Positions 35,601 through 60,571 of a stretch of 64,000 nt of DNA are shown piece after piece; the stretch's first letter is position 1; each line of letters opens with the position of its first letter. The DNA comes from Patiria pectinifera (taxonomy: Eukaryota > Echinodermata > Asteroidea > Valvatida > Asterinidae). The notes beneath the pieces are model-generated. The model made no database searches and was not told the DNA's origin. It saw only the letters and a list, made by a program, of their open reading frames with translations. Position numbers and translations under genes: made by a program. The DNA is taken from contig CM057133.1 in assembly GCA_029964075.1 (NCBI GenBank), positions 13,044,699 through 13,108,698 on the forward strand. Direction: 5' to 3'.

Positions 35601-38600
35601 CCCCTCCCCTTCATTTGTCATTTTTTTCTGGACATGAAGGGTCAGCTAGGCTTCTGTCCTCTGACTGACTGAGTCACTGAGTCTAGAGGGTTTTAATGCA
35701 TCTTGTCCTGAACAAGGCTAGAAGCCACTCAATGTACAGAGCTACAAGAGAAATAACTAAGAGTAGGTACTCAGGAAAACTGAAGGCTATTCCTCTTTAA
35801 TAAAACAGGACAGATCCTAGGTTGGAGCTCCATGGTTGGAGGGGGGAGGGAGAAACAAGTACCAGGCAAGAAATTCCAAACAACGGCCTAAACTGAGACG
35901 TTTGGGCCCAGCTGGACTAGAGACAAGCCTTATCTTGTTTTGGCAAATTAGCAGTTTTCCTTCTAAATCCTACAAGTAGCCAAACTCCGGTGCGGATGAA
36001 CTGGGAGCTCTTAATACTCCCGAAACCAGACAGAACTTAAAGCAGGCTTAAACACGATTAATCCATGATCTTTGCTTTAATGTTTTCTCCTACTTTTAAC
36101 CAAGAGTATTTGAAATGCCGGTAGATTTTGGCTGATCTTGGCTGATCCCGTCGAACATTTGCACGGAAGTTGATACCATGCTTAAGGCCAAGGTAGTAAA
36201 ACTCAAGACAAGACCTGAGCTTAGAGTCTTAGACAAACGCAGCCATCTGCCTGTCCAAAAAGGTCTATTCTTGGTCATCCGAAGCTCTATAATCCCAAGG
36301 GGAAAGACATAGGGGTATTAAATGTGATCAGAACCGCAGGCAATACGTCTTCGTTGGGGAAATCCACCAAAAGGCACCTGGAACCAGATGTTTGCTTCAA
36401 AAACAAGCGCTCCAGCTTAAAAGATATTAAAAGATTTGTGAACTATACTTGTACAGATGGCATTAAAGTTGTCACTAGAATGATGCATGTCCTCTTAATT
36501 TTAAAACAAATTAATTCTGATACAAACATTTATCAAAACTGATATTTAGTGTGACTTTGATCACGAATTCTGGCAAACATTTCTTAAAAAGGCGCAGTAT
36601 CCATTAAATTTCAAGCCAGTCTCTCAAATAAGGTGTTTCACGGTAACATGCACCATCTTGTTCACGGGGCAAAAAGAACACGCGGTGTGCTAAACGAACG
36701 GGGGTGCATTTTGGAATGACCGCATAATGACTTGGAAGCGCCAAAGTTTTCCAATGACGATGTGTACACAGCAACGCGTGTAAAATTGCCCCGCGGGCAA
36801 GATGCCGCATATTACCGTCAAACACCTTATTAAGTCCCGAGGCAAGTCACAAGCAAGATGAGATTGACAAGGAATTTCCTTGACACAATTCATGTGAATA
36901 GCTTGTGACCTGACTGGAGACTGGAGGACTTGTGATTGACACTGATGGCTTGTGATGGCTTGTGATGGCTTGTAATGGCTTGCGATGGCTTGTGATGGCT
37001 TGTAAATGTAATGGCTTGCAATGGCTTGTAATGGCTTGTAATGGCTTGTGATGGCTTGTGATGGCTTGTAATGGCTTGTGATGGCTTGTAATGGCTTGCA
37101 CTGGCTTGTGATGGCTTGTAATGGCTTGTAATGGCTTGCGATGGCTTGTGATGGCTTGTAATGGCTTGCAATGGCTTGTGATGGCTTGTAATGGCTTGCA
37201 ATGGCTTGTGATGGCTTGTAATGGCTTGCGATGGCTTGTGATGGCTTGTAATGGCTTGCGATGGCTTGTGATGGCTTGTAATGGCTTGCAATGGCTTGTG
37301 ATGGCTTGTGATGGCTTGTTACGGCTTGCAATGGCTTGTGATGGATTGCAATGGCTTGTAATGGCTTGCGATGGCTTGTAATGGCTTGCAATGGCTTATG
37401 ATGGCTTGTAATGGCTTGCGATGGCTTGTGATGCCTGTAACTATAACTTAAAGCAAGTGAACAGCACAGATGTCATGCAGTAACCTTTTTGGCAAATTCC
37501 ACTGCCCACAAGTGGCACAACACCAATATTTTCAAACAAGTGATGACACAATCACCAAGGGAACTTCTTATCTTTCAAATGTCATTCGTAAGTATCTGTC
37601 ATCAGGCGTATTCATTTCCTTTTCCTTGCACTCCACCTCTCTCATCTCTAGCTACTCCCAAAAATGAGCAGTCCGATGTTTTTTTTTTGTTTTTTTTCCA
37701 GAGATTACGCATGTCACAATGTCAAGGTCTTAAGTACTTTGTCCTTCACTGTTTCAACTGTCATTATTCACAGAAAAAGAATTAAATTCCACTAGGGCCT
37801 TCTTTGCTCAATGCTCACACTGCATGTTGGACAGAATGGAAAGAATGTTGAAACCTGACGCTACATCAGTCATGTCAGTGGTTGTGTACAAAGTCTATGG
37901 AGAGTCAAGAATTTCCAACCAAAACTGGACATGTTTGTCAGTCCCAGATTCATGTCTTTTCATCATTTTTGCCATGACTGACCTTCATTGGGATGATATA
38001 TAAAGACAAAAGCAGCGTCAGGTTGCAACATTCTTTCCGTCGAACATGCCATATCGCGACATGTCAAGGCAATATTGCTGGGAGATTAAACCTCCATTAT
38101 TGTCTATATTGATGATGATGGTCGAACTGAAACAAGATCTTGTCAGTTTTGATCAAGAAAAACATCTTACCACCACAATGATCACGAGCATCCAATGTTG
38201 CTTTCACATTGCCAGAACTTCCATTAACGGGCACTTCACGGCCACCTTCCAAATAACAACTCATTGCTGGTTTTCGGTTGACAAATTAATTATTTTCAAA
38301 AGGTTTTTGATTGTGCTTCTTCGCCACATGTTTAAATATCTTTCTGAAATTTCAGTGAATTGGTGTCCAATCGCGCATGTATATGTTTATGGCGTAAGAA
38401 GTTGGAACGCCGGGTACCATGGTAATCCACAAATGGGTATTCCCCTTTTCTTTTACTTTTAAAATCGACGCTATGATATGGAAGTGTAGATAGGACATGG
38501 TTAAAAATAAAACTAATTCGTACGTACGAATTACTAAACCGTACGTACGAAATACTAATTCGTACGTACGAATTACTAAACCGTACGAATTATTAATAAT

Positions 38601-46734: not shown

Positions 46735-48768
46735 ATGTCGAAAGCAGTTTTCTTGTGGATTGTTCTCCCCCTCTTGGCAGAGACTATCGTGCCGACAGTG
46801 GCTTATTCTCAGGCACACAGGGCCTGCTATTCATTCACAAAGCCCGGAGATGTGATCCTCGGCGGATTACTTACGGTGTCCCCCAGCTCAGCTAAAAATC
46901 TGTGCCACAGTAAGATTAACACCAACTGGCTGATCAAGAACGCGTTGGCTATGGACTTCGCAGTTGAAGATATCAACAAGCGGCGAGACTTGTTACCGGA
47001 TGTTACCCTGGGCTACGACCTACGGAATGATTGTTCATCTGAGGAGCTCTCCCTCTGGCAGACGCTGACCCTTGTTAGTCCGGATAGTCCCACGACTTTC
47101 AAGGATCTCTGTTCCCTTGAGACGCCCCGCACAGGTCCAGTGGTTGGCCTGATAGGCACCGGCTCTAGCGAGACCAGCATCCCGGTCAGCCAACTCGGCC
47201 AACTGTTCGAAGTGCCGGTGGTGTCGCACGGAGCGCACAGCGATGAATTCAGCGACCGGGAGAAGTACGCCTACCTCTTGAGGACCTCCACGCCGGACCG
47301 GCTGCGGGTGGAAGCCATTCTGGATATCTTGGAGCATTTCGGGTGGGTGTACGTGGCCTTACTCTACTCTGCCGACAGTGAGGGTATCCACGGGGCCATG
47401 CAGTTCGAAGCCTCGGCCGCAAAGCGCAACGTGTGTCTTGCTATGTCCTCCTACGTACGGGACTCCGCATCCGAAGAGGACCGCAACGAAATAGTGGCCA
47501 AGATGTTGGAGTATGACGCTTCCACAGTCATTGTCACCTTCCTTGGTCGCGTTGACGCCCTGGACATGTTGCAGTCGTTCAGGGAGGCGGGCTTGACTCA
47601 CCGCTACATCTGGGTCGCCGCCCAGATATGGGAAAATCTACTTGACAGGCAGGACCTACACGAAGTCACGAGTGGTGCGATCTTCCTGAAGTTCACCAAC
47701 GAACCAGTGCCCAAATTCATGAAGTATGTCTCGTCTCTGATCCATACTCCGTGGGAAAATCTGAGTGAATGGTCTCAGGAGGCACTCTGCAGTGATAAGG
47801 ACTTCACAAACTGCTCCAGTCTCCATAAGCTGTCACTGGGGCATTCTCTTCTAGGTGAAGAAACGCCAGTCGTGAACGCTGTGCAAGCATTTGCCCACGC
47901 TATACACGCTTACATCGAGGATGTATGCGCTGGTAGGCCTAACTGCATCCACAAAGAAGGCATCACTGGAAGCCTTTTGTTGTCCTACCTGAAGAACGTG
48001 TCTTTCCCAGCCCCAGGAGGGGAATTTTCTTTCAATAGCTACGGGGACGGAGGTGGGGCATACACGATCAACAACTACCAAGAAGTCGACGGTAAATACA
48101 TCATGGTAGACGTCGGTCACTGGAGCTCATCCACCGCTGGGCTGTGCCTGAACGAAACCTTGATGCGTTGGCAGAATGGGAGCAGGGAGATACCCCTGTC
48201 CAACTGTCGCGAGGTCTGCCAGGCCGGCTATTTTTCAGTACCACGGGGGAGGTGTTGCTCCGGGTGCCACTCATGCCCAATCGACACTATCGTAAAGGGG
48301 ACCCAGTGCGAACGTTGCGGGCAGACTGAGTGGCCGGATCCCTCCCGCACCCAGTGTCGTCAGATCGCCCCGACTCCGATGGATTACGGGAGCCCTGTGG
48401 TCATCTTACTGCTGACCCTGTCCGGCCTGGGCATCGCCCTCTGCGCACTGACCGCGGTGCTGGCCTTGGCCTACCGGAACCACGCCCTGATCAAAAGCTC
48501 CAGTCGCGAGCTGAGCTGCGTCAACGTCCTGGGTCTCACCTTGGCATTCGTGACGGGCGGTTTGATTCTCCTGCCCCCGGTACCTACCACCTGCATCGTC
48601 GCTGAGACCGGGATCGCCTTCAGCTTCACCCTCAGCTTCGCCCCGACTCTCCTGAAGGTTGTCCGGATATACAGGATCTTCCAGGCGGGGCGGCGGTCCG
48701 TGAAGCGGCCACGCTTCATCTCACCGAAATCCCAGATGACAATGGTCGCCTTGTTTGTGCTAATCCAG
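46735..48768 (+). CDS. mGluR-like receptor exon 1: signal peptide, Venus flytrap, cysteine-rich domain, TM1 to TM4 start
   Basis: 678 codons ending LFVLIQ directly before the donor GTAAGT. It carries the whole ligand-binding ectodomain in one exon. The frame stays open nine codons past the donor, so an unspliced product would end inside TM4. The frame also extends upstream of the ATG, but only with non-ATG codons. Confidence 0.9.
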
Positions 48769-51660
48769 GTAAGTGCATACAACCTCTGTTTATTATGATA
48801 CGTCTTTTCACCCCTGCTATCCACTAAAGGAATAAAGGATCATTTGCGTTTGCTTCATTTTTTTAAATTTTCCAATTAACACCACTCAAATCCAAAGAAG
48901 AAGCTTCAAAATCTAACGGAATTTGAACATTTGATGTTTAATTTTCTTAAAACGTTGCTTGGATTTTCTGAAAAGATGCATAATCCTGGCCCTAAATCCA
49001 ACATGGCGTCACCATTTTCGAATAATTTCACACAAGGTGAACACACTAATCGGTAGGGTTAAACATGACGAGTACAACATCACAAGTAAAGTGAAGCTTA
49101 TTAGAGGAAATGTTCGGAATTTATAAACCCCGAGAGAAGGACTTTTTTTCGGAACCTTTGTGTTTTTCACAGTACAAAAACAATGATTTGAGTGTCAACA
49201 ATAATGTCTCCCTCAACGTCTTGCTCAATTGTTCATTATAACTGAAAAGCAACTCAAATTTAGGGACTTCTCCACCAAGATTTTATAAGAATTGCTTACA
49301 AACGCTCCCGCAACCTTAAACCTGTGTAAAAAGCAATTCTCTTCATATTTTGCTTTCTATAGGAGGGGGGGGGGTTGAAGTTAATCCATTTCCCGTACGG
49401 ACATTGATAATAAATTGCATTACATTTGGCTTTTTATTAATGATTGCTGATGAATCAACGTACATCACATTTGGAATCACGACCATGCACGATTATTTCC
49501 CAAGCAATATTGACAACACGATTTCATTTCCTACAAGCACTCAACATGCGTCCGTTCCGCCTCAGTTTAAGTAAATGAACAAGACAGTGAATCGTGCGAT
49601 TGAGGTATGCCGTTTTGCTATGGAGCGGGGGCAATTTGTTTTGGCGACCTATAGTCACTGGTTATTGGGCGCGTGCGTCATACGTAATGGCAAACGGTCT
49701 TAGGATCTGCTTTTCTTTAAAGAAAGCAATCAATTTCATAATATTGTTGACAAAAGTCCGAAGATCGAGCTCAAAACACTCGCTTAACCTATTGCGCCAA
49801 AAGGGTCATTGTATTGTGCCTTAATATGCTCTTTGCCCGAAGTGAACATCTTACGTTGAGTATAACACTTGACAAATAACCGGTCACTTTACGGAGTGAT
49901 AACTATTACTGAGTAATCGGCAATCGAGTGATTGAAGTTTGTGTAGTTGCACGGGGTCGATAGTGCATATAGAGCTCGTAATCAATTAAATTCGATTGAT
50001 GTGTTTACGAGTAGGGAAATCTTGCCAGGCAGTGTGGTAAGTGATAATTTAGAAACATGCTGTTAATTATTGACCCGATGCGGTGAAATAATCAAGGTAT
50101 AGACTTTAACCAAAACTAGCTTAATGTTGCAAAATTGTTCCTCAAAAATAAAAGGACAAATAATAGAGGCTTTACTTTTGTGGTAGTTCCATTGTAATAC
50201 ACTCGTACTAATGAACAAAACACGTTCTAGGTAGTGTTATATTATGGGGCATATGTAATATAGAGTAGCTGTGCCAAAGGGTTGTTAATAATGAATGAAT
50301 GAATTTCACCGCACTGCAAAGAACATACTAGTATTATCACCAGAACACGGTTCTCAAAGACCTGAAAGACTAGTAACACGAACGCGCCTACTAGACTCTA
50401 CATGGTAAACAAAATTGCGCCCTTTCGTGTTTTTTGGGGGGGTTGGTTAACTCTCGTCTCATGTCCTTAAATGCCTCGAGCGCCCTCTGGAGACAAATTG
50501 CAGTACGGTCAGCCATCAAACCAGCATTGGCGGCGTGACGTACATCGACGTCATTCACGTCAAGTCACTTTAGGGTCACCCACGATCCTTTTTTTTGTCG
50601 CCATGACAATATTTTGTGAGATCTGGTTAGGTTGTATCGCGTTAAGTCCTGCGGGGCCGAATGAAATGGAATAAGTGTCACAGAAAGGGTACGGTGCGTG
50701 CAAATAATCGTGTGGGTTTTTTGTACTTAACTGCAGCAATTAGAAAATCACTATGCCTGACGTATTCAAACAATTGTGTTTTTGTTTGCCAAGAGCAAGA
50801 CTTGAGATCCCTTGTGAGAGTTGCAATTCTATCATGATTCCTTAGTTTGAGTCCCCCTCAGAGACTTGAATTCTAAGGCCCTTGCTTCCCGACGGCCATG
50901 GAGTAATAGAGCAAACAGAAACACTCAATTTATTTTGGAAAGTATCCATCAGTTTTAATCACCCAAAATGACATTTGGGAAGTGCCTGTACTCTTTCAAC
51001 CCTCATAATGGATATTAATATGGACTTTAGATGGCACTGGTTCAGCATTATGTTCAACACACAAAAATAAAGTACTTCCTTAACCGTTTTACCCCATTTT
51101 TCATCTAGGTTCTGATAGCCGCAGTGTCGATTCTTACCAGCCCCTCCAAGCCAGAGACCCTCGCTAGACCGAACACAAACGGCATGATGCATGTGGTGGA
51201 ACTCTTCTGCCTGTTTGGTGTCGGTTTTTACGCCAGCGGCCTGTACAACCTGCTACTGATCTTGGGCTGCTGCCTGGCCGCCTTCAAGGCCCGTAAGGTA
51301 CCCAGCAACTACAACGAGTCCAAGTTCATCGCGGTCAGCGTCTACTCCACCCTGGTGCTGTGCCTGGCCGCCGTGCCGGTCTACACCACGGCCGTGGACG
51401 TGCTGCAGAAACTGGCCACGGTGTGCCTCGCCGTACAGCTCAACGCCTACCTGACGCTGGTCTGTGTCTACCTGCCCAAGCTCTGTGCTATCCTCTTCGT
51501 CAAAGAGTGCGGGGTGACCCTGATGGCTTGCAACACCGCTCCCTGCACGCAGGCACCACCAGAATCTGTTCACCGGAACCTACGCTTGGTTGATGCCATT
51601 AAGGTTCACCCTATGCCATCCATTGACACGTCTGTCCCCTGCAGATCATCCATTATTTAA
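46735..51660 (+). CDS. Metabotropic glutamate receptor-like class C GPCR (two exons, 861 aa)
   Basis: A plasma-membrane class C GPCR. Exon 1 is 46735-48768 and exon 2 is 51109-51660, joined in phase 0 within TM4. Domains: signal peptide (1-25), Venus-flytrap ligand domain (about 30-480), nine-cysteine domain (Cys 491-541), seven helices (about 555-805) and a short tail. mGluR hallmarks include KSSSREL before TM2, RPRFISPKSQ before TM4, PSNYNESKFIAVSVYST leading into TM6 and PCRSS in the tail. The ATG at 46735 is chosen because it begins a clean signal peptide. By eye, several mGluR glutamate contacts are replaced (T188 to H, Y236 to H, D318 to Q, K409 to E, mGluR1 numbering), while S165 and D208 remain. 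Glutamate is therefore probably not the ligand. Family membership is secure; orthology and ligand are not. Confidence 0.9.
48769..51108 (+). other. Intron of the mGluR-like gene (2.34 kb)
   Basis: Bounded by GTAAGT and TTTTTCATCTAG. Nothing else in it is supported; short open frames at 49350-49824 and 50471-50674 lack motifs. It contains a G run near 49361. Confidence 0.85.
51109..51660 (+). CDS. mGluR-like receptor exon 2: TM4 end to TM7 and C-terminal tail
   Basis: 183 codons plus stop, beginning VLIAAVSILTS in frame with exon 1. It encodes the end of TM4, a short ECL2, TM5, the FNEAK-like loop (YNESKF), TM6, TM7 and a tail of about 55 residues. The tail keeps a DAIKVH...PCRSS segment similar to the proximal tail of group I mGluRs but lacks the long Homer-binding extension. 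Confidence 0.9.
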   Translation, partial: VLIAAVSILTSPSKPETLARPNTNGMMHVVELFCLFGVGFYASGLYNLLLILGCCLAAFKARKVPSNYNESKFIAVSVYSTLVLCLAAVPVYTTAVDVLQKLATVCLAVQLNAYLTLVCVYLPKLCAILFVKECGVTLMACNTAPCTQAPPESVHRNLRLVDAIKVHPMPSIDTSVPCRSSII

Positions 51661-51979
51661 ACAGGGGGAAATGTGTACGACAACGCCGTTTAAGAAAAGA
51701 ATCAAGGGGGAGCAAAATGGAACAACCCATGTTAATTGACATAATTATACTTCTACTATCGCCAAAAAAACGGGAAAGCAATTTTTATAAATGTCAATTT
51801 ATGCGAGACGCACTTCAGAGGCCTAAGTCAAGTAAACACCAAATTATCCATTTTTACCTTCCAGCGCTAACTGACCCGTACTATAAAAGCATTGAACTGG
51901 CAAACTCGGGGCTGCAGCTATAAATACGAGTATAAAGTTACTGAGCGGTCAAACAGCATGATACATCAATGACGCAGGC
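51661..51979 (+). promoter_or_regulatory. Short intergenic region with TATA-like boxes upstream of GPCR copy 1
   Basis: Only 319 bp separate the mGluR-like stop from the next start. CTATAAAAGC at 51881-51890, and CTATAAATACGAGTATAAAG around 51919-51938, are TATA-like and lie 42-99 bp upstream of the ATG. The spacing from the second pair leaves room for only a short 5' leader. Promoter function is inferred. Confidence 0.45.
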
Positions 51980-53221
51980 ATGGATGCATCCAGCGCGCTG
52001 AACGTGACATGGCTACACGCTGACGGAGCTTTTGCACTGGACAAATCACTATGGTACAATCTGAGTTTGATCGTGCTGATAGTGTTGGGATCGGTGGGCA
52101 ACGGTCTGTGCTGCTATGCTGTGGTTAGATACAAGTTTCTACGGACGGTGCCAAATTTCCACATCACCTCTCTGGCGGTGTCGGACCTGTTTGTGTGCGT
52201 GTTGGTCTTGCCCCTGACTGTCTATAACGGGCTTAGGACGGGAGAATGGAACTTGGGCGGTTTCATGTGTCACCTGTGGCCTTTCTTCGTCTCCGTGGGA
52301 TCCTTGTCTTGCAAACTAACGCTGTGCGTGATTTCCGTGGACCGTTATCTGTCGATCGCTGCGCCCGTTAAGTACTTGAAGTACCGTAAACCTCGGATTG
52401 CGCTGGCCGTCATCACCGCGACGTGGCTGGCTGTATTCGTCACGTCCTCGCCTTTAATTTCCTTGACTTCGCACTATCGCGGAAGCGAATGTTTTCCAAC
52501 AGAAACCATCTTTGACATCCGGGCCACCCTGGCTGTATGCTTATTCGTGCTCCCCACTTGCGTTCTGGTGGTTGTGAACGTTGGTACGGCTCGGGCTATT
52601 TGGAAGATCAACCGCCCGCGGCGAATTGGTCCTGGGAGAAACCCAGATGCGCCTGGGATCGAGAATGTCCCTGCACCAAATCAGCGTGATGTCCAAGCGG
52701 ACGTGTTGAAAATGCAGCAAATACGATCAGAGAAGCCCGGTTGCAGCACCCATAGGTCTTCGACCACGAGGTACCCGGCTGGCTTGGAAGCTGATGACAC
52801 CACGATGGCAAACATCCCCGGTCCATCCTTCTCCAAAGAGCCCCAAAGAGTCGCTTCCAGTGCCGCCGTAGCTGCGGTCACAGTAATTCATGTCAACCGC
52901 CGTCAGCAGCGGGACACAGGCCCACACCCAAATCAGCAGCCGAGGATAGAAGATATCATAGCGGCCCGCAGGAAGAAATCCTTTGCAGTGATAGCCGTAG
53001 TTGTCGGCTCCTACATAGTCTGCTGGCTGCCTTTCTTCAGCATCATCCTGTACTCCAAACAGCATCCTGAGGTCTACCAAACCCCAGTTGCTCCCTGGCC
53101 GCTGGTAGCTAGCCTATGGTTAGGCTTTCTTAATTCCACCATCAACCCAATCATTTACGCCTCTATGAAGAGAGACTACAAGCGAGCCATGAAGATGATG
53201 CTACGGTGCAGGCGTGCTTAA
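51980..53221 (+). CDS. Rhodopsin-class (amine-receptor-like) GPCR, copy 1, intronless, 413 aa
   Basis: A seven-helix class A GPCR in a single exon, expected in the plasma membrane. Seen: GNG in TM1 (N41), LAVSDL in TM2, conserved Cys97 and ECL2 Cys171, DRY at 121-123, a long third intracellular loop (about 205-335), CWLPFF at 348-353 and NPIIY at 389-393. TM7 WLGFLN (W380, G382) and the F352-F353 pair are typical of biogenic-amine receptors. The amine-binding Asp at 3.32 is Val104, and TM5 lacks the usual serines, so a classical amine ligand is unlikely. The ATG context is good and lies just after TATA-like boxes. The adjacent copy 2 is a tandem duplicate with a nearly identical C-terminal half. 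The orphan receptor family is not named because I do not recognise the closest vertebrate relative. Confidence 0.9.
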   Translation: MDASSALNVTWLHADGAFALDKSLWYNLSLIVLIVLGSVGNGLCCYAVVRYKFLRTVPNFHITSLAVSDLFVCVLVLPLTVYNGLRTGEWNLGGFMCHLWPFFVSVGSLSCKLTLCVISVDRYLSIAAPVKYLKYRKPRIALAVITATWLAVFVTSSPLISLTSHYRGSECFPTETIFDIRATLAVCLFVLPTCVLVVVNVGTARAIWKINRPRRIGPGRNPDAPGIENVPAPNQRDVQADVLKMQQIRSEKPGCSTHRSSTTRYPAGLEADDTTMANIPGPSFSKEPQRVASSAAVAAVTVIHVNRRQQRDTGPHPNQQPRIEDIIAARRKKSFAVIAVVVGSYIVCWLPFFSIILYSKQHPEVYQTPVAPWPLVASLWLGFLNSTINPIIYASMKRDYKRAMKMMLRCRRA

Positions 53222-53668
53222 ATCCGCACCGTGCTGCGCAGAAACCGAGACGTTGCGACATGCCACAAGTGTCACTCTTTGCATATACATATAGCAGCTT
53301 TTAAAAACCACGAACTTGAAACGCGAATTGAAGTTAAATTTGATATGATAAGGTTACATGGAAATTTCGATGCAGAAAAAAAATTCGCCCTGATAAAAGC
53401 ATGGCGGTCAGTGTATGCGAGTCGAGTAATATTGATTGCGCTTGCATTCCCCCCCCCCATTTTTTTTTAGATCTTAACTATAAACTCTGCAGGCGGCAAA
53501 CGTCATCGGCTGTATGGAAACCATGCTAACGGAAAGTGGCATAAGGGCCATTTGACGTCCAATATTATAACATTATTCGCAATGCTCGCTCTGACGTCAT
53601 CGTTTGAACGTATATAAAAACACCCGCCGCATGAAAAGGAAAGATCATTCAGCCGTTGAAGTACAAAC
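53222..53668 (+). promoter_or_regulatory. Intergenic spacer with CRE and TATA box before GPCR copy 2
   Basis: The left part is homologous to the sequence after copy 2 (about 54899-55215), so it belongs to the duplicated unit. A full palindromic CRE, TGACGTCA, lies at 53592-53599, followed by TATATAAAAA at 53611-53620 and the ATG at 53669. This tight arrangement looks like a compact cAMP-responsive core promoter. A poly-C/poly-T run lies at about 53449-53469. Confidence 0.6.
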
Positions 53669-54898
53669 ATGGATTCATCGAACTCTTCACTCAGTGTGTC
53701 AGGCAGCGAGGCCTATGGAGCTTTTGCATTGGACAAATCATTATGGTTCAATCTGAGTTTGATCGTGATGATAGTGTTGGGATCGGTGGGCAACGGTATG
53801 TGCTGCTACGCGGTAGCAAAGTACAAATTTCTGCGGACGGTGCCCAATTTCTACATCACCGCCCTCTGTGTGTCGGACCTGATCATGTGCGTATTTGTTT
53901 TGCCCCCGATGGTCTTCAATGGATTCCACGAAGATGGCTGGGTCTTGGGAAAACTCATCTGTCGTCTGTGGATTTTTCTTTTTTCCGTGGGGGCCATGTC
54001 CTCGATACTGGTACTGTGCATGATTTCCGTGGACCGTTACCTGTCGATCGCCACGCCCGTTAAATACTTGAAGTACCGTAAACCTCGGATAGCGCTGGCC
54101 GTCATTATCGGGGGCTGGCTTGCAGTGGTCGGTGTATCGGTCGTCTTCACCCGACAGGCTTATCACGCTAACTGGTGTTATCTTGGATCACCGACTGAGC
54201 CATATCGACGTCTTTCATTATGTATGTTCTGGATTCCCACGACTATTCTCGTGATCGTGAACGTGGGTACAGCTCGGGCCATTTGGAAGATCGACCGCCC
54301 GCGGCGAATTGGTCCAGCAAGAAACCCAAATGTGCCCAGGCCAGCCCCGGTACACTATCAGCGTGATGTCCAAGCAGACGTGTTGGAGATGCAACAAATA
54401 AGATCTGACATGCCCAGTTGCAGCAGCCGCAGGTCTACGACCATGAGGTACCCCGTGACTGGTGTGAAAGCTGATGACGCCACGATGGCAAACATCCCCG
54501 GTCCATCCTTCTCCAAAGAGCCCCAAAGAGCCGCTTCCAGTGCCGCCGTAACTCCGGTCACAGCGCCCGTCAACCGCCGTCAGCAGCAGGACACGGACCC
54601 ACGGCCCAATCAGCAGCTGAGGATAGAAGATATCATAGCGGCTCGCAGGAAGAAATCCTTTGCAATGATTGCCGTAGTTGTCGGCTCTTACATAGTCCGC
54701 TGGCTGCCTTTCTTCAGCATCATCCTGTACTCCAAACAGCATCCTGAGGTCTACCAAACCCCAGTTGCTCCCTGGCCGCTGGTAGCTAGCCTATGGTTAG
54801 GCTTTCTCAATTCCACCATCAACCCAATCATTTACGCCTCTATGAAGAGAGACTACAAGCGAGCCATGAAGATGATGCTACGGTGCAGGCGTGCTTAA
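53669..54898 (+). CDS. Rhodopsin-class (amine-receptor-like) GPCR, copy 2, intronless, 409 aa
   Basis: A tandem paralogue of the preceding receptor with the same architecture: TM1 GNG, Cys98 and an ECL2 cysteine, DRY at 122-124, a long third intracellular loop, and C-terminal WLGFLN and NPIIY. Position 3.32 is Phe105 rather than Asp, again arguing against an amine ligand. Position 6.47, normally Cys in the CWLP motif, is Arg344 (RWLPFF), a non-conservative change beside the toggle-switch tryptophan. From about TM6 to the stop the nucleotide sequence differs from copy 1 at only a handful of sites, whereas TM2 to TM5 have diverged strongly. The frame is intact. The receptor could be functional with altered activation or be early in decay; I favour functional because no stop or frameshift is present. 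Confidence 0.9.
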   Translation: MDSSNSSLSVSGSEAYGAFALDKSLWFNLSLIVMIVLGSVGNGMCCYAVAKYKFLRTVPNFYITALCVSDLIMCVFVLPPMVFNGFHEDGWVLGKLICRLWIFLFSVGAMSSILVLCMISVDRYLSIATPVKYLKYRKPRIALAVIIGGWLAVVGVSVVFTRQAYHANWCYLGSPTEPYRRLSLCMFWIPTTILVIVNVGTARAIWKIDRPRRIGPARNPNVPRPAPVHYQRDVQADVLEMQQIRSDMPSCSSRRSTTMRYPVTGVKADDATMANIPGPSFSKEPQRAASSAAVTPVTAPVNRRQQQDTDPRPNQQLRIEDIIAARRKKSFAMIAVVVGSYIVRWLPFFSIILYSKQHPEVYQTPVAPWPLVASLWLGFLNSTINPIIYASMKRDYKRAMKMMLRCRRA

Positions 54899-56565: not shown

Positions 56566-59500
56566 GTGAGTTGCTATTAGGAGTTGTGTATTGCAAAAGA
56601 CTTCAATGTTGCAATGGCGTCTTCTTTCTCTCAGGCATTTCAACTTAAAAACGGGCTCATCTGGTGTATAGTTTTATAGAATAAATCGTATGAAACTGCA
56701 TTTGTTTGAAAACAGGTTCATGCAGGCAAACATTTGCAGGCTGCACTTCGTTTGACGCAAGGAGCGCCGTTTATCGTACTATTTGAATAATTATTTAAAA
56801 GATAAATATTAAATAACATGTCCTGTACACAGGCGGATGTATAGACCCGACTTCGGTAGTTTCTACGGTGCAATAATAACGCTAAATTTAAATTAAAATA
56901 GGCCCCCTGTTCGCCATCGGTCCTTTCTTTTCGTATTTTTCCAACCCCTCTCGGGGGGGGGGGGGCCTGGGAGCATCAAGGCCCCCCTCCCCAGCCCCTG
57001 GATTATTTTCTTCTTTGTCAATAGTTTATTTTCTTTGTGTAATTCCCTTTTGCCATTTGATTGTTCATCTTGTTTATCTTTCGTAAGAACATTTTGATTT
57101 GGCTGCCTACTTGTTTGTTCTTTTTGTTTCGTGATCAATTCGTTTTTTGTTCACTTTGTTTACCTGAACGTTTTTGTATAGTTTTGGTTTGGACTACATG
57201 TAGTTGCACGAAAATGTGATTATGGAATTATCGTTTTTGTTGCATCCATATAATTATATCCAGTATGTTTTAATCCCATGTGTATTATATTTGCGTTTGT
57301 CCGCTTGTTTGTATGTCTCTGTATTTGTCATGTTGTCATTTCGGTTTTGTTTTGTCAAGGCATCGCCATATAAGTCCCCGGCTTCGGAAGATGCCCCCAT
57401 AATTGCCTTTTTTTATGGTCCTTTCTTGCTTAGATATTTCCATGTACATTTAGAATAATATTACTTTAATTATATTACTTATTAATTTATTTTGTTACAT
57501 TGTCTTGTTTTCTTTTTGGCATTATGGAAATAAATGTTGATTGATTGAATGTTTTTGCGCTAACGGCCAACACTCCACCATTCCCCTTTTAAATTATTAT
57601 GAAGTTTTCGGTAATCGGACTCATATTTTGCTATTATGAACAAATTTTTCAACTCATCTGAGCTCGTGCGGACCATTAAAACGAGCAGCAACGAGCGAGC
57701 TGAATGCCCGTAATGACAACCATTAGGTTCCAAAAATAATGCGTGGTCATTTTGGCGGGCATTGTACTCAGCTAGAAGAATAAGTAAAGAGTTCGCAAGA
57801 ACCGAACGACACCGCGCGTCTCTCGTGCACTGTGTGCATTCAACTTTTTTGTGCATTACGTACTTACTCTATAGGCCTTCAATGTGACATGGGTTTCGAG
57901 ATACTTTCACGTCATTAATTATTTTTGATGGCATATTGTGCGATCGATATTGCTCGATGTGCTTAATGCGCACACTAACGACATGAATACATCTGAAGAA
58001 CATAAATCCTATATGTTGCAATATTTCTTAACAAGTCTATGATAACACGAGGCTATTGTTCCATGTAGGCTTTCTCCTGCATTCTATAAAGGTAACTGAA
58101 AATAAATCTAGGAATTTTAGCGTTTGATTTATTTTTGACCCAATTTTTACTAGTATAATTTCATTCAAGTCACCGGCTATGTGTGTGTATGGGGGGGGGG
58201 GGGGTCGAAAATCGGCAAAGAGGATCAAGTGAACAGCGCCACCTAGGGGATGTTGGTAGAGGGAATGAGGTGACATCACACGTTAAAAAGGGTTCTGTAG
58301 GCAGAGGCCACCGTAATAGCGCCACCAATATGTACACAACAAACATAAGCGAACCGAAAATGCGCACATGTCAGGGATTGAGAATTATACAAGTAATTTT
58401 AAATCTCACTTTTTTGATATTTTAAATAATTGTTTTCTTCGCACTCTTTTTTCCAATAAGTTGGCTACCTGGGCGGTGGTGCGGCTAGGAACGAGGGCTG
58501 GCTCCAGCTCTACGTAGACAACACGTGGGTTACCGTCTGCAACCGTAACTGGACCTACGACTCGGCGGACTACACCTGCCGCAGGCTAGGCTTCGACGGT
58601 GTCCGACCGGACGGCTGGGGTGTGCACCTGGGCGAGGGTACCGGCCCTTCGTGGTGTCTCGACGGTGGCGATCAGGGAGACTGGGAACTGGTGCCGTGTC
58701 CTGTTGATGGCGATGACGTGTGCACACATAGTGATGACGTCGGCCTGAGTTGCGTATGGGATCCTGAACCTGACGACTTCCTGAGTAAGCCTGTGAATTG
58801 TCTGTGCGTCAACAATCGGTGTGTTCAGCGCAAATTTGGACCTTGCACAAATTGATTGCCCTTAATTCAATCGACCTAATTCATAGGCTAACCAACTCAG
58901 GAATAAGGACAACAGATTTGCGCAAGTTTCAAAGTTGCGTTGAACAGATGCATGGTGACTTTTAAGGGAAGATGGTGTGCGATAACTAAAGTAATGTTCG
59001 ATCCCAAACAAAACCACATGGGCAATCAACGCATTCTCCTGAGGACGCGTCGACGCGTCACACTATACACCGGCTCTTTCAGAATTCAGAGCATTCACGA
59101 AATGTTTTCCTCCAACTCCGCCCCTCTGTGTATTCCACCATGTACAAATTCAACTTTCATATCATTAATTTGAGTTTCTTTATTTCTCATTTTAGTGTGT
59201 GCAACGGTGGTGCTGTATAGGGATTGTACTCTGAAAGTTACAGCGCCTCAAATTTGCATATGGGAAAAATTGCACATCGTTCGTATCAGGGTTTTTTCAC
59301 GATAATCTTTATGCTTAAACAAACTATTTTCATTACTGTAAAATCAGTTTCTCATCAAAATAATGGGCTGGTTATGGAACTTTTTTTTACCACTTCACTA
59401 ATTGTTTGATCTCCTTTGCCCTTTATTTGACAGATCGCCTAGGCTACATGTTCCGCCTCACAGGCCCCGCAGTGGGACAGGGCGAGGGCCGCGTGGAGGT

Positions 59501-60571
59501 ATTCTACGGCAGCGAGTGGGGCACCGTCTGCACCCGTGGCTGGACCCAGTACTTCGCCGATGCCGTCTGCAAGCATCTCGGCTACCGAGAAGGCGTGCAG
59601 GACGACGGCTGGATGCTGCCGGCCCAGGAACAAGGCAGCGGGCCCGTGGTGTGCGCCGAGATTTTCTCGCTAGGGCTGTGCCCGGCCGCTGGCGGTGGGG
59701 AGGCGGCTGGGGAGGCGTGTACGCACTCGCACGATGTGGGAGTGAGATGCCGGCAGGAAGGAGACGAGGAAAATGGTATCAATTCGGGAAGAGGTGAGTC
59801 TAAATTTGTTGGAGAGCACGGACGGTTCATCTTTGCCTGTAAAAATTTCGAACCAGTACGGTCGCAAGTAAAATAATTTACCCATAATTTTGACAGCATT
59901 CTTTCCGTTGTACAGACATGGAATTGGTTCGGTTGGGGATAGTAGCGGCCAGCTCCGTCTTGGTCGCTGGCGGCCTGTTCCTGCCTCTCCTTGCCTGCTA
60001 CCTGATGGTGAAATCACCCGCCAGGAGGCTCAGCGAGGACCTGGAGAACCTCATCCAAGCCAAGGAGGAGGAAACCCCTCCAGAGGGGGACGGGCTGGAA
60101 GAAGTAGGCGTGGCTGCCGAAGGAGAGGTGAACGAGGGCTACACGGAGGAGGATGAGACAGCTGGTGATGGGAGTCTTAGGGAAGAGGTCAAAGGTCAGG
60201 CATCGGATGCTGACAAGCACGAGGAGGAGACTAACAGTACCACTGGGGAGGCAGAGGAGGCGAGTGGTGATCCTGGCTTCGAAGAAGGCACAAGCGGCTG
60301 CAATGAGACTAGTGCGGCAGTAACCGTTAACGGTGTTGATGATATCGAGACTGTTATTATGGAACCACGTGAATCAGCCGAGAAGACCCAAAACGCCGTC
60401 AACCAACAAGACAATGAAGACATCAGCCAAGCAGAGAAATCTCCTACCCTTCCAGTGGAGGACAGGCCACAAGACTCACACGACTACGAGGTTTTGAACG
60501 AGGCCAGCACTCCAGAGAATTACGAGTTTTCCATGCACGGCGAGCATGCACTCGACTCCGTATATTTCTGA
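56460..60571 (+). CDS. Type I membrane SRCR receptor: two SRCR domains, TM helix and acidic tyrosine-bearing tail (481 aa)
   Basis: A predicted cell-surface scavenger-receptor-cysteine-rich protein. Exons are 56460-56565, 58461-58784, 59434-59793 and 59916-60571; all introns are phase 1 with GT-AG ends. Order: signal peptide (1-25), SRCR1 (36-143), SRCR2 (144-255), TM helix (about 270-292) and a cytoplasmic tail of about 189 residues. Each SRCR has six cysteines, the group A count, yet is encoded by one exon, the usual group B layout. The tail is very acidic and ends with three tyrosine motifs: DYEVL (Y454), NYEFS (Y466) and SVYF (Y480). Y454-Y466 spacing equals that of an ITAM, but the second motif ends in Ser. 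SRCR proteins bind microbial and self ligands and are greatly expanded in echinoderms, so an immune-recognition role is plausible. The ligand is unknown. Confidence 0.88.
56566..58460 (+). other. SRCR receptor intron 1 with LINE-like 3' tail
   Basis: A 1.9-kb intron bounded by GTGAGT and TTCCAATAAG. It contains poly-G runs at about 56956-56967 and 58190-58203. Around 57400-57549 lies a stretch ending GGAAATAAATGTTGATTGAT, which resembles the 3' end of CR1/L2-type LINE retrotransposons. No coding exon is seen. Confidence 0.6.
57400..57549 (+). mobile_element. Possible 3' terminus of a LINE retrotransposon
   Basis: T-rich sequence followed by GGAAATAAATGTTGATTGAT and a short TTGA repeat. 3'-truncated tails of this form are common for CR1-like LINEs in marine invertebrates. 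No reverse-transcriptase frame is present, so the call rests on the tail alone. Confidence 0.35.
58461..58784 (+). CDS. SRCR receptor exon 2: SRCR domain 1
   Basis: 108 codons in a symmetric phase 1-1 exon, opening VGYLGGGAARNEGWLQLYVD. It has the SRCR landmarks WVTVC, a C-x-x-LGF-like turn (CRRLGF), a DVC/HSDDVGLSC ending and six cysteines. The exon ends DPEPDDFL just before GTAAGC. Confidence 0.88.
58785..59433 (+). other. SRCR receptor intron 2 (649 bp)
   Basis: Bounded by GTAAGC and a TTTATTTGACAG acceptor. No other feature is seen. Confidence 0.85.
59434..59793 (+). CDS. SRCR receptor exon 3: SRCR domain 2
   Basis: 120 codons in a second symmetric phase 1-1 exon. It has VRL-type FRLTG...GRVEVFYG, EWGTVC, VCKHLGY, VVCAE and CTHSHDVGVRC, a textbook SRCR fold with six cysteines. 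An alanine/glycine-rich loop (AAGGGEAAGEAC) lengthens the segment before the fifth cysteine. A short acidic linker (EGDEENG) leads to the donor GTGAGT. The exon is noticeably GC-richer than its surroundings. Confidence 0.88.
59916..60571 (+). CDS. SRCR receptor exon 4: transmembrane helix and cytoplasmic tail
   Basis: It follows a 122-bp intron (59794-59915) with acceptor TTGTACAG. It encodes a hydrophobic helix (LGIVAASSVLVAGGLF and on), a basic stop-transfer KSPARR and then a long tail dense in Glu and Asp. The stop is at 60569-60571. The terminal section contains the DYEVL, NYEFS and SVYF motifs. Confidence 0.88.

Follow-up and report, generated by a model that had tools for sequence, protein, structure and literature searches.

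What does a receptor of the metabotropic glutamate receptor (mGluR) type sense when most of the residues that hold glutamate in its pocket have been replaced? The question is raised by a gene at positions 46735 to 51660 (+) of a 64,000-nucleotide stretch of the genome of the starfish Patiria pectinifera (GenBank assembly GCA_029964075.1, contig CM057133.1, positions 13,044,699 to 13,108,698 of the forward strand), which as a whole we call the window. On balance we think it rather probable that the window receptor is a working class C G-protein-coupled receptor (GPCR) in a two-exon, mGluR-related family, and that it responds to something other than glutamate, probably not to a standard alpha-amino acid either. 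As judged from the sequences, the family has mostly lost the two residues that anchor the glutamate side chain (R78 and K409, mGluR1 numbering here and below) and mostly keeps the five contacts to the amino-acid backbone, and the window receptor additionally loses three of these five (T188H, Y236E and D318Q).

In mGluR1, S165 binds the carboxylate of the ligand, T188, D208, Y236 and D318 bind its amine, and K409 contacts the glutamate side chain, according to PMC2680970. Ten MAFFT runs, some with relatives included and some without them, aligned exon 1 of the window receptor with rat mGluR1, mGluR4, mGluR7 and CaSR. Of twelve pocket positions, eleven were assigned identically in every run, and a HMMER alignment to mGluR4 gave the same assignments at the positions discussed here; the twelfth, R323, was unstable, falling on Leu302 in six runs and on Asn301 in four. 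The positions are as follows, with residue counts among the 23 paralogues defined below; the positions with such counts rest on the MAFFT runs and the family alignment, and the others were the same in 10/10 runs.

46927..46929 (+): Trp65, at mGluR1 Y74
46939..46941 (+): Asn69, at R78; glutamate side-chain anchor lost
47167..47169 (+): Ser145, at S165; kept
47236..47238 (+): His168, at T188; Thr or Ser in 23/23 paralogues
47296..47298 (+): Asp188, at D208; kept
47380..47382 (+): Glu216, at Y236; Tyr in 20/23 paralogues
47389..47391 (+): His219, at S239; His in 14/23 paralogues
47623..47625 (+): Gln297, at D318; Asp or Glu in 19/23 paralogues
47857..47859 (+): Glu375, at K409; side-chain anchor charge-reversed; Lys in 0/23 paralogues

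An earlier reading of this gene from its letters (the sequence-only reading) had proposed that the receptor lost most of its glutamate-binding residues, and this holds: both side-chain anchors and three of the five backbone contacts are changed in all ten runs. That reading had S165 and D208 retained and T188, D318 and K409 changed to His, Gln and Glu, as we find in 10/10 MAFFT runs and with HMMER. It erred at Y236, which it gave as His and which is Glu216 in every run; the His that it placed there is perhaps His219, at S239. Four further changes were absent from it, namely R78 to Asn69, Y74 to Trp65, W110 to Ser101 and E292 to Gly271. No shift of alignment columns that would restore the Tyr, Asp and Lys contacts was found in the ten MAFFT runs or the HMMER alignment. 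By the published contact scheme, the window receptor is thus left without its glutamate anchor, with a polar, uncharged residue at R78 and a charged one at K409, and with two of five backbone contacts. From this pocket, glutamate is very unlikely to be its ligand and an ordinary amino acid is doubtful; the receptor probably senses some other small molecule, for which an amine or a modified amino acid is our first guess.

The significance of these changes depends on what the relatives of the receptor have kept. Pockets were readable in 23 paralogues, after omission of one whose flytrap reads X (L033) and of a more distant receptor (L038); since the 23 include the near-copies L018, L027, L028, L032, L034 and L037, they are not 23 independent witnesses, and these six were also removed for entropy and divergence tests, leaving 17 non-redundant paralogues. 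All five backbone contacts are retained in 17/23 paralogues: in addition to the counts listed above for positions 188, 236 and 318, Ser stands at position 165 in 21 of them and Thr in the other two, and Asp stands at position 208 in 21. At the side-chain anchors, Arg replaces the missing Lys409 in two of the 23, and position 78 is Arg in two and Lys in one. Because no relative keeps Lys409, its loss is a family trait, and the window receptor is not singular in having lost the side-chain anchors, since most paralogues lack a basic residue at 78 and 409 and class IV mGluRs lack both anchors. Against the 412 flytrap columns of the 17 paralogues, the five backbone contacts have low entropy (mean 0.72, P 0.006 versus random sets) and eight positions that we take to be the side-chain contacts of the mGluR1 structure have high entropy (mean 2.71, P 0.002). 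This combination is as expected of amino-acid receptors retuned through the side chain, and most family members look like retuned receptors for different amino acids.

The sequence-only reading had gone on to suggest a switch to a different, possibly cationic or non-amino-acid ligand. Loss of glutamate binding is supported, as described above. The inference of a cationic ligand is weak, because the net charge of the window receptor over ten core pocket positions, -3, falls within the family range of -4 to 0 and is shared by five family members and L038. The same ten positions carry 0, +1 and +2 in mGluR1, mGluR7 and mGluR4, so that an acidic pocket is a trait of the family, and a cationic switch special to the window receptor is rejected. 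The idea of a non-amino-acid ligand does set the window copy apart, since 17/23 paralogues keep five backbone contacts and the window copy two.

Is the gene itself real, and of the type supposed? The gene model is as follows (TM, transmembrane helix).

46735..48768 (+): exon 1, 678 residues; N-terminal hydrophobic stretch, Venus flytrap, nine-cysteine domain and TM1 to the start of TM5; open frame with splice donor
48190..48369 (+): nine-cysteine domain region, nine cysteines in register with mGluR4
48769..51108 (+): phase-0 intron within TM5; paralogues break at the same place
51109..51660 (+): exon 2, 183 residues and stop; remainder of TM5 to TM7 and a short tail ending PCRSSII

The coordinates, gene model and domains of the sequence-only reading are borne out by the start codon, splice sites, stop and Pfam matches. 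The gene begins with ATG at 46735, has consensus sites at both ends of its intron (donor CAG|GTAAGT after 48768, acceptor TAG|GTTCTG before 51109) and closes with a stop ending at 51660, encoding 861 residues in 861 codons without a stop or frameshift. Pfam matches are ANF_receptor (3.3e-57) and 7tm_3 (2.3e-25) on exon 1 and again 7tm_3 (7.6e-23) on exon 2. The motifs KSSSREL, RPRFISPKSQ and PCRSS, which had been read as mGluR signatures, are all present; the nine-cysteine domain named with them stands by its register with mGluR4, although the NCD3G match (26.8 bits) lies below the Pfam cut-off of 38.9. A counterpart of the cysteine that links mGluR protomers is also visible in the HMMER alignment to mGluR4. 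Among solved structures, exon 1 is nearest to mGluR4, mGluR7 and mGluR3 (1.6e-80 to 1.1e-78), with the best CaSR at 4.8e-55, and scores 274 bits with mGluR4 against 190 with the best CaSR. With flytrap, cysteine-rich domain and 7tm_3 predicted in one protein, the gene is by its sequence a real and intact class C GPCR, and one of mGluR rather than CaSR type, being closer to the mGluRs.

The family was surveyed with the 7tm_3 profile over the genome to which the window belongs (1020 contigs, 613.5 Mb), with 141 matches and 150 of 254 candidates scored. In addition to the window receptor, 24 exon-1 frames of the same build were identified (L015, L017, L018, L020-L028, L030-L037 and L041-L044), giving a family of about 25 loci whose size is open upwards, as 150/254 candidates were scored, and downwards, as some loci may be haplotypes. 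Near-copies on different contigs, such as L017 and L018 or L033 and a match on contig C561 with scores nearly the same, may be two haplotypes of one gene. Sixteen of the 25 receptors lie on the window's contig (C5, 20.7 Mb), between 1.77 and 18.43 Mb, four of them within 5.94-5.98 Mb, and three groups (L025/L034/L037, L026-L028 and L031/L032) are 88-93% identical in protein. Similarity among the frames of the family breaks off at one common point in TM5. Of 22 extrapolated exon-2 starts, 15 fall right after an AG, five have an AG nine bases on and two are unclear; L023 has no exon 2 match. The window receptor shares its exon break in TM5 with this family and falls with it in one clade: in trees of the seven-transmembrane (7TM) part that cover 24 of the 25 receptors (all but L018), these stand on one side of a branch supported at 100/99, or 100/100 when more exon 2 data are included. 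We infer that the expansion is specific to this lineage. A more distant receptor (L038/L007), near 2.02 Mb of contig C12, is 28% identical in exon 1, and its match ends at the same IQV place in TM5; the branch that unites L038 with the family has support of 100/99, and the one that separates the family from L038 has 86/87.

The same genome holds separate multi-exon genes that pair with known receptors: L002 with mGluR1 (100/99), L003 with mGluR3 (93/87 and 93/86), L001 with mGluR4 (96/85 and 98/85) and, on a long branch, L005 with human CaSR (100/99), a pair outside which the two-exon family falls. A further mGluR-like gene, L004, stands outside the class I-III and CaSR pairs and is by its sequence apparently class-IV-like, with an apparent Gln at 409 that is tentative, being the first residue of the match. 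The two-exon family adjoins L004 in both 7TM trees, which contain no published class IV sequence, with support of 86/78 and 87/42 and a long family stem (1.19 and 1.63). As these trees are midpoint-rooted, they do not settle the branching order relative to the mGluRs, CaSR and L004, and with that level of support for L004 an origin of the family from class IV is not demonstrated.

Within the family the window receptor is an outlier. It is alone among the 24 receptors compared (itself and the 23 paralogues) in having neither Thr nor Ser at 188, and it also lacks Tyr236 and an acid at 318. It departs at 31 of the 119 flytrap columns conserved in at least 70% of relatives (26%), compared with 7-23% in 16 of 17 relatives and 38% in L017. 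By exon 1 it is closest to L043 (support 99/97 and 98/95), in which position 236 is Asp and 318 is Thr; L017 and L018 show the same two residues, although the alignment is unsure there and L017 is a long branch. An acid at 236 thus occurs without an acid at 318 in 4/4 cases (the window receptor, L043 and the near-copies L017 and L018), and 19/20 receptors with Tyr236 have an acid at 318. The amine-holding acid may therefore have moved across the cleft, once or twice. Constraint is measurable in exon 2 of the window receptor (dN/dS 0.24 to 0.42 versus five relatives) and in exon 1 of seven closely similar pairs of other family members (0.28 to 0.50).

The two exons also differ in how far they have diverged between copies. 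Against 16 relatives, the window receptor is 45-78% identical in exon 2 and 29-38% in the flytrap. Silent divergence (pS) was compared in 136 pairs of 17 receptors (leaving aside L018, L023, L027, L028, L032, L034, L037, L038 and L044), and was lower in exon 2 than in the TM1-5 part of exon 1 in 122 of them. Part of this difference is explained by GC content at third codon positions (0.776 in exon 2 versus 0.672), which lowers saturated pS to 0.669 versus 0.752, so that only the lowest pairs, those of the window receptor with L024, L022 and L021 (0.37 to 0.44 in exon 2 versus 0.64 to 0.69 in TM1-5), support exchange. These pairs suggest that exon 2 has been exchanged between copies.

If the favoured explanation is right, the window receptor, perhaps together with L043, would have shifted to a ligand other than glutamate. 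A small amine or modified amino acid could be gripped by Asp188, Glu216 and Ser145, His168 taking over from the Thr hydroxyl. As in other class C receptors, the ligand would shut the flytrap of a receptor dimer, and the nine-cysteine domain would relay the closing motion to the 7TM part and on to a G protein. Most family members are probably chemoreceptors, as suggested by their clustering, their copy number, their variable side-chain positions and the expression of starfish mGluR-like genes in sensory organs. More speculatively, and as a possibility that we think less likely than not, the family could be a counterpart of the vertebrate V2Rs drawn from mGluR stock. Exon 1, the sensor, would vary freely, most of all at positions such as those facing the ligand side chain, and repeated exchange would keep exon 2, the signalling end, similar between copies; most members would then read different amino acids, and L043 and the window receptor would have left amino acids behind through the move of the acid from 318 to 236.

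Several observations weigh against this explanation. The acid lost at 318 is matched by one gained at 236, so that an amine may still be held, and the excess of pocket changes (3/5) over general flytrap divergence is not significant (p = 0.11 with columns conserved at 70%, 0.47 at 80%); for both reasons a non-amino-acid ligand is unproved. The same enrichment test gives p = 0.038 for L043 at 70%, uncorrected for 18 receptors tested. Pairing of the window receptor with L043 has weaker support in the 7TM tree (86/79) and is lost once further members contribute their exon 2. Coupled change of 236 and 318 is attractive but is set aside for want of cases: the tree calls for two changes at the first position and three at the second, with one independent pair on starred branches and two on all, hence at most two independent events. 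Silent sites in exon 1 of the window receptor have reached saturation in the comparisons with L043 and L022, which leaves selection on its flytrap unmeasurable, and the chemosensory role is a suggestion that rests on the shape of the family.

The counter-proposal closest to these observations is an alpha-amino-acid receptor with a rewired pocket, in which Glu216 replaces Asp318 as the acid gripping the amine, the carboxylate is bound by His168 together with Ser145, and Glu375 favours ligands whose side chain is basic or polar. Retention of S165 and D208 in all runs, the coincidence of an acid at 236 with no acid at 318, and the 17/23 relatives that look like amino-acid receptors all speak for it. 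However, that coincidence reflects at most two independent events, one of them the unsurely aligned L017, and T188 is Thr or Ser in every relative; mutation of the pocket Thr-176 of the insect receptor DmXR, which we infer to be T188 of mGluR1, abolishes the response to its ligand, L-canavanine (PMC2695807). We consider the rewired pocket unlikely, while granting it a real chance. With three of five backbone contacts gone, the flytrap might instead have ceased to bind ligand at all, leaving the window receptor as a non-binding heterodimer partner of another family member. GABA-B2 is a non-binding partner of this kind. The changes at 26% of conserved flytrap columns, more than in 16/17 relatives, and the better conservation of exon 2 would fit such a role, yet S165, D208, the reading frame and the nine cysteines are intact, the replacements (His, Glu, Gln and Glu) are charged or polar, and L043 has the same pattern at 236 and 318, so we find this reading quite improbable.

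We give slightly less credence still to a plain class IV mGluR, as in most bilaterians. Loss of R78 and K409 is the published mark of class IV (PMC6307864), and the family adjoins the class-IV-like L004, but that grouping is not strongly supported and the family stem is long; moreover, class IV retains the backbone contacts of which the window receptor has two of five, and L004 already stands as a separate class-IV-like gene in the same genome, with its tentative Gln at 409. The poorest candidate, to which we attach very little weight, is a decaying gene whose pocket changes are drift. General divergence above that of 16/17 relatives and an exon 1 without measurable constraint, its silent sites being saturated, would fit decay; the intact 861 codons, the consensus splice sites and the constraint on exon 2 speak against it.

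Other features of the window lie on both sides of the receptor. Just downstream, at 51962-53221 and 53660-54898 (+), is a tandem pair of single-frame rhodopsin-type receptors (7tm_1), the first of which is nearest to dopamine D3 among solved structures (9.7e-37). Identity between the pair per 100 aligned bases is mostly 47-91% and rises to 95-99% over about 52942-53245, as if the 3' part had undergone gene conversion. Further downstream (+), open frames at 59364-59876 and 59894-60571 contain, by eye, a stretch resembling scavenger receptors (GRVEVFYGSEWGTVC) and a hydrophobic segment followed by an acidic tail. Upstream, a long open frame at 36690-37472 (-) is built, by eye, of a repeated SHHKPSQAI-like unit and looks like a tandem repeat, not a gene.

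A receptor without most of its backbone grip, within a family that mostly keeps it, would provide a natural series on how a flytrap changes ligand class, and if the family is chemosensory it would represent an origin of class C chemoreception separate from V2R and T1R; the simple two-exon build makes its members easy to clone and test. In echinoderms, mGluR3 and mGluR7 of a starfish are mGluR-like and differentially expressed in sensory tentacles and tube feet (Roberts 2018; PMC6267866), genes to which we liken the family by description and not by sequence, and a survey of two sea cucumber species gives 10 metabotropic glutamate receptors in one and 6 in the other (PMC7042368). Among the matches listed in our literature search, with most subscription papers outside its reach and others accessible in part, we recognised no published class C expansion in echinoderms and found no description of a large two-exon family with a member that has lost most of its backbone grip.

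Compared with known receptors, the window receptor shares with mGluR classes I to III the flytrap, the nine-cysteine domain and a 7TM part with RELS, PRFISP and NxNExK-like motifs, and its flytrap is 29-30% identical to those of mGluR4 and mGluR7. It differs from them at R78, K409, T188, Y236 and D318, in having LKVVR for TKTNR after TM3 and in having CLAA for WLAF in TM6. The class C build is also common to CaSR, T1R and V2R, of which CaSR, the one of the three placed in the trees, is less similar in exon 1 by the bit scores given above; the V2Rs are a lineage-specific chemoreceptor expansion (PMC2728731). Similarly to class IV and the insect mX receptor DmXR, the window receptor has lost the glutamate side-chain anchors: class IV mGluRs, present in all bilaterian phyla investigated except vertebrates, have replaced R78 and K409 and conserved the backbone contacts (PMC6307864), and DmXR is not activated by glutamate and senses L-canavanine (PMC2695807). 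The backbone contacts kept in class IV, and all five in 17/23 paralogues, are in the window receptor reduced by three, and the grouping of its family with the class-IV-like L004 is weakly supported. Taken together, mGluR relatives that do not read glutamate are known from class IV and DmXR, and what appears to be new, against the literature listed, is that the window receptor, a member of a large two-exon family, has also given up most of its backbone grip.

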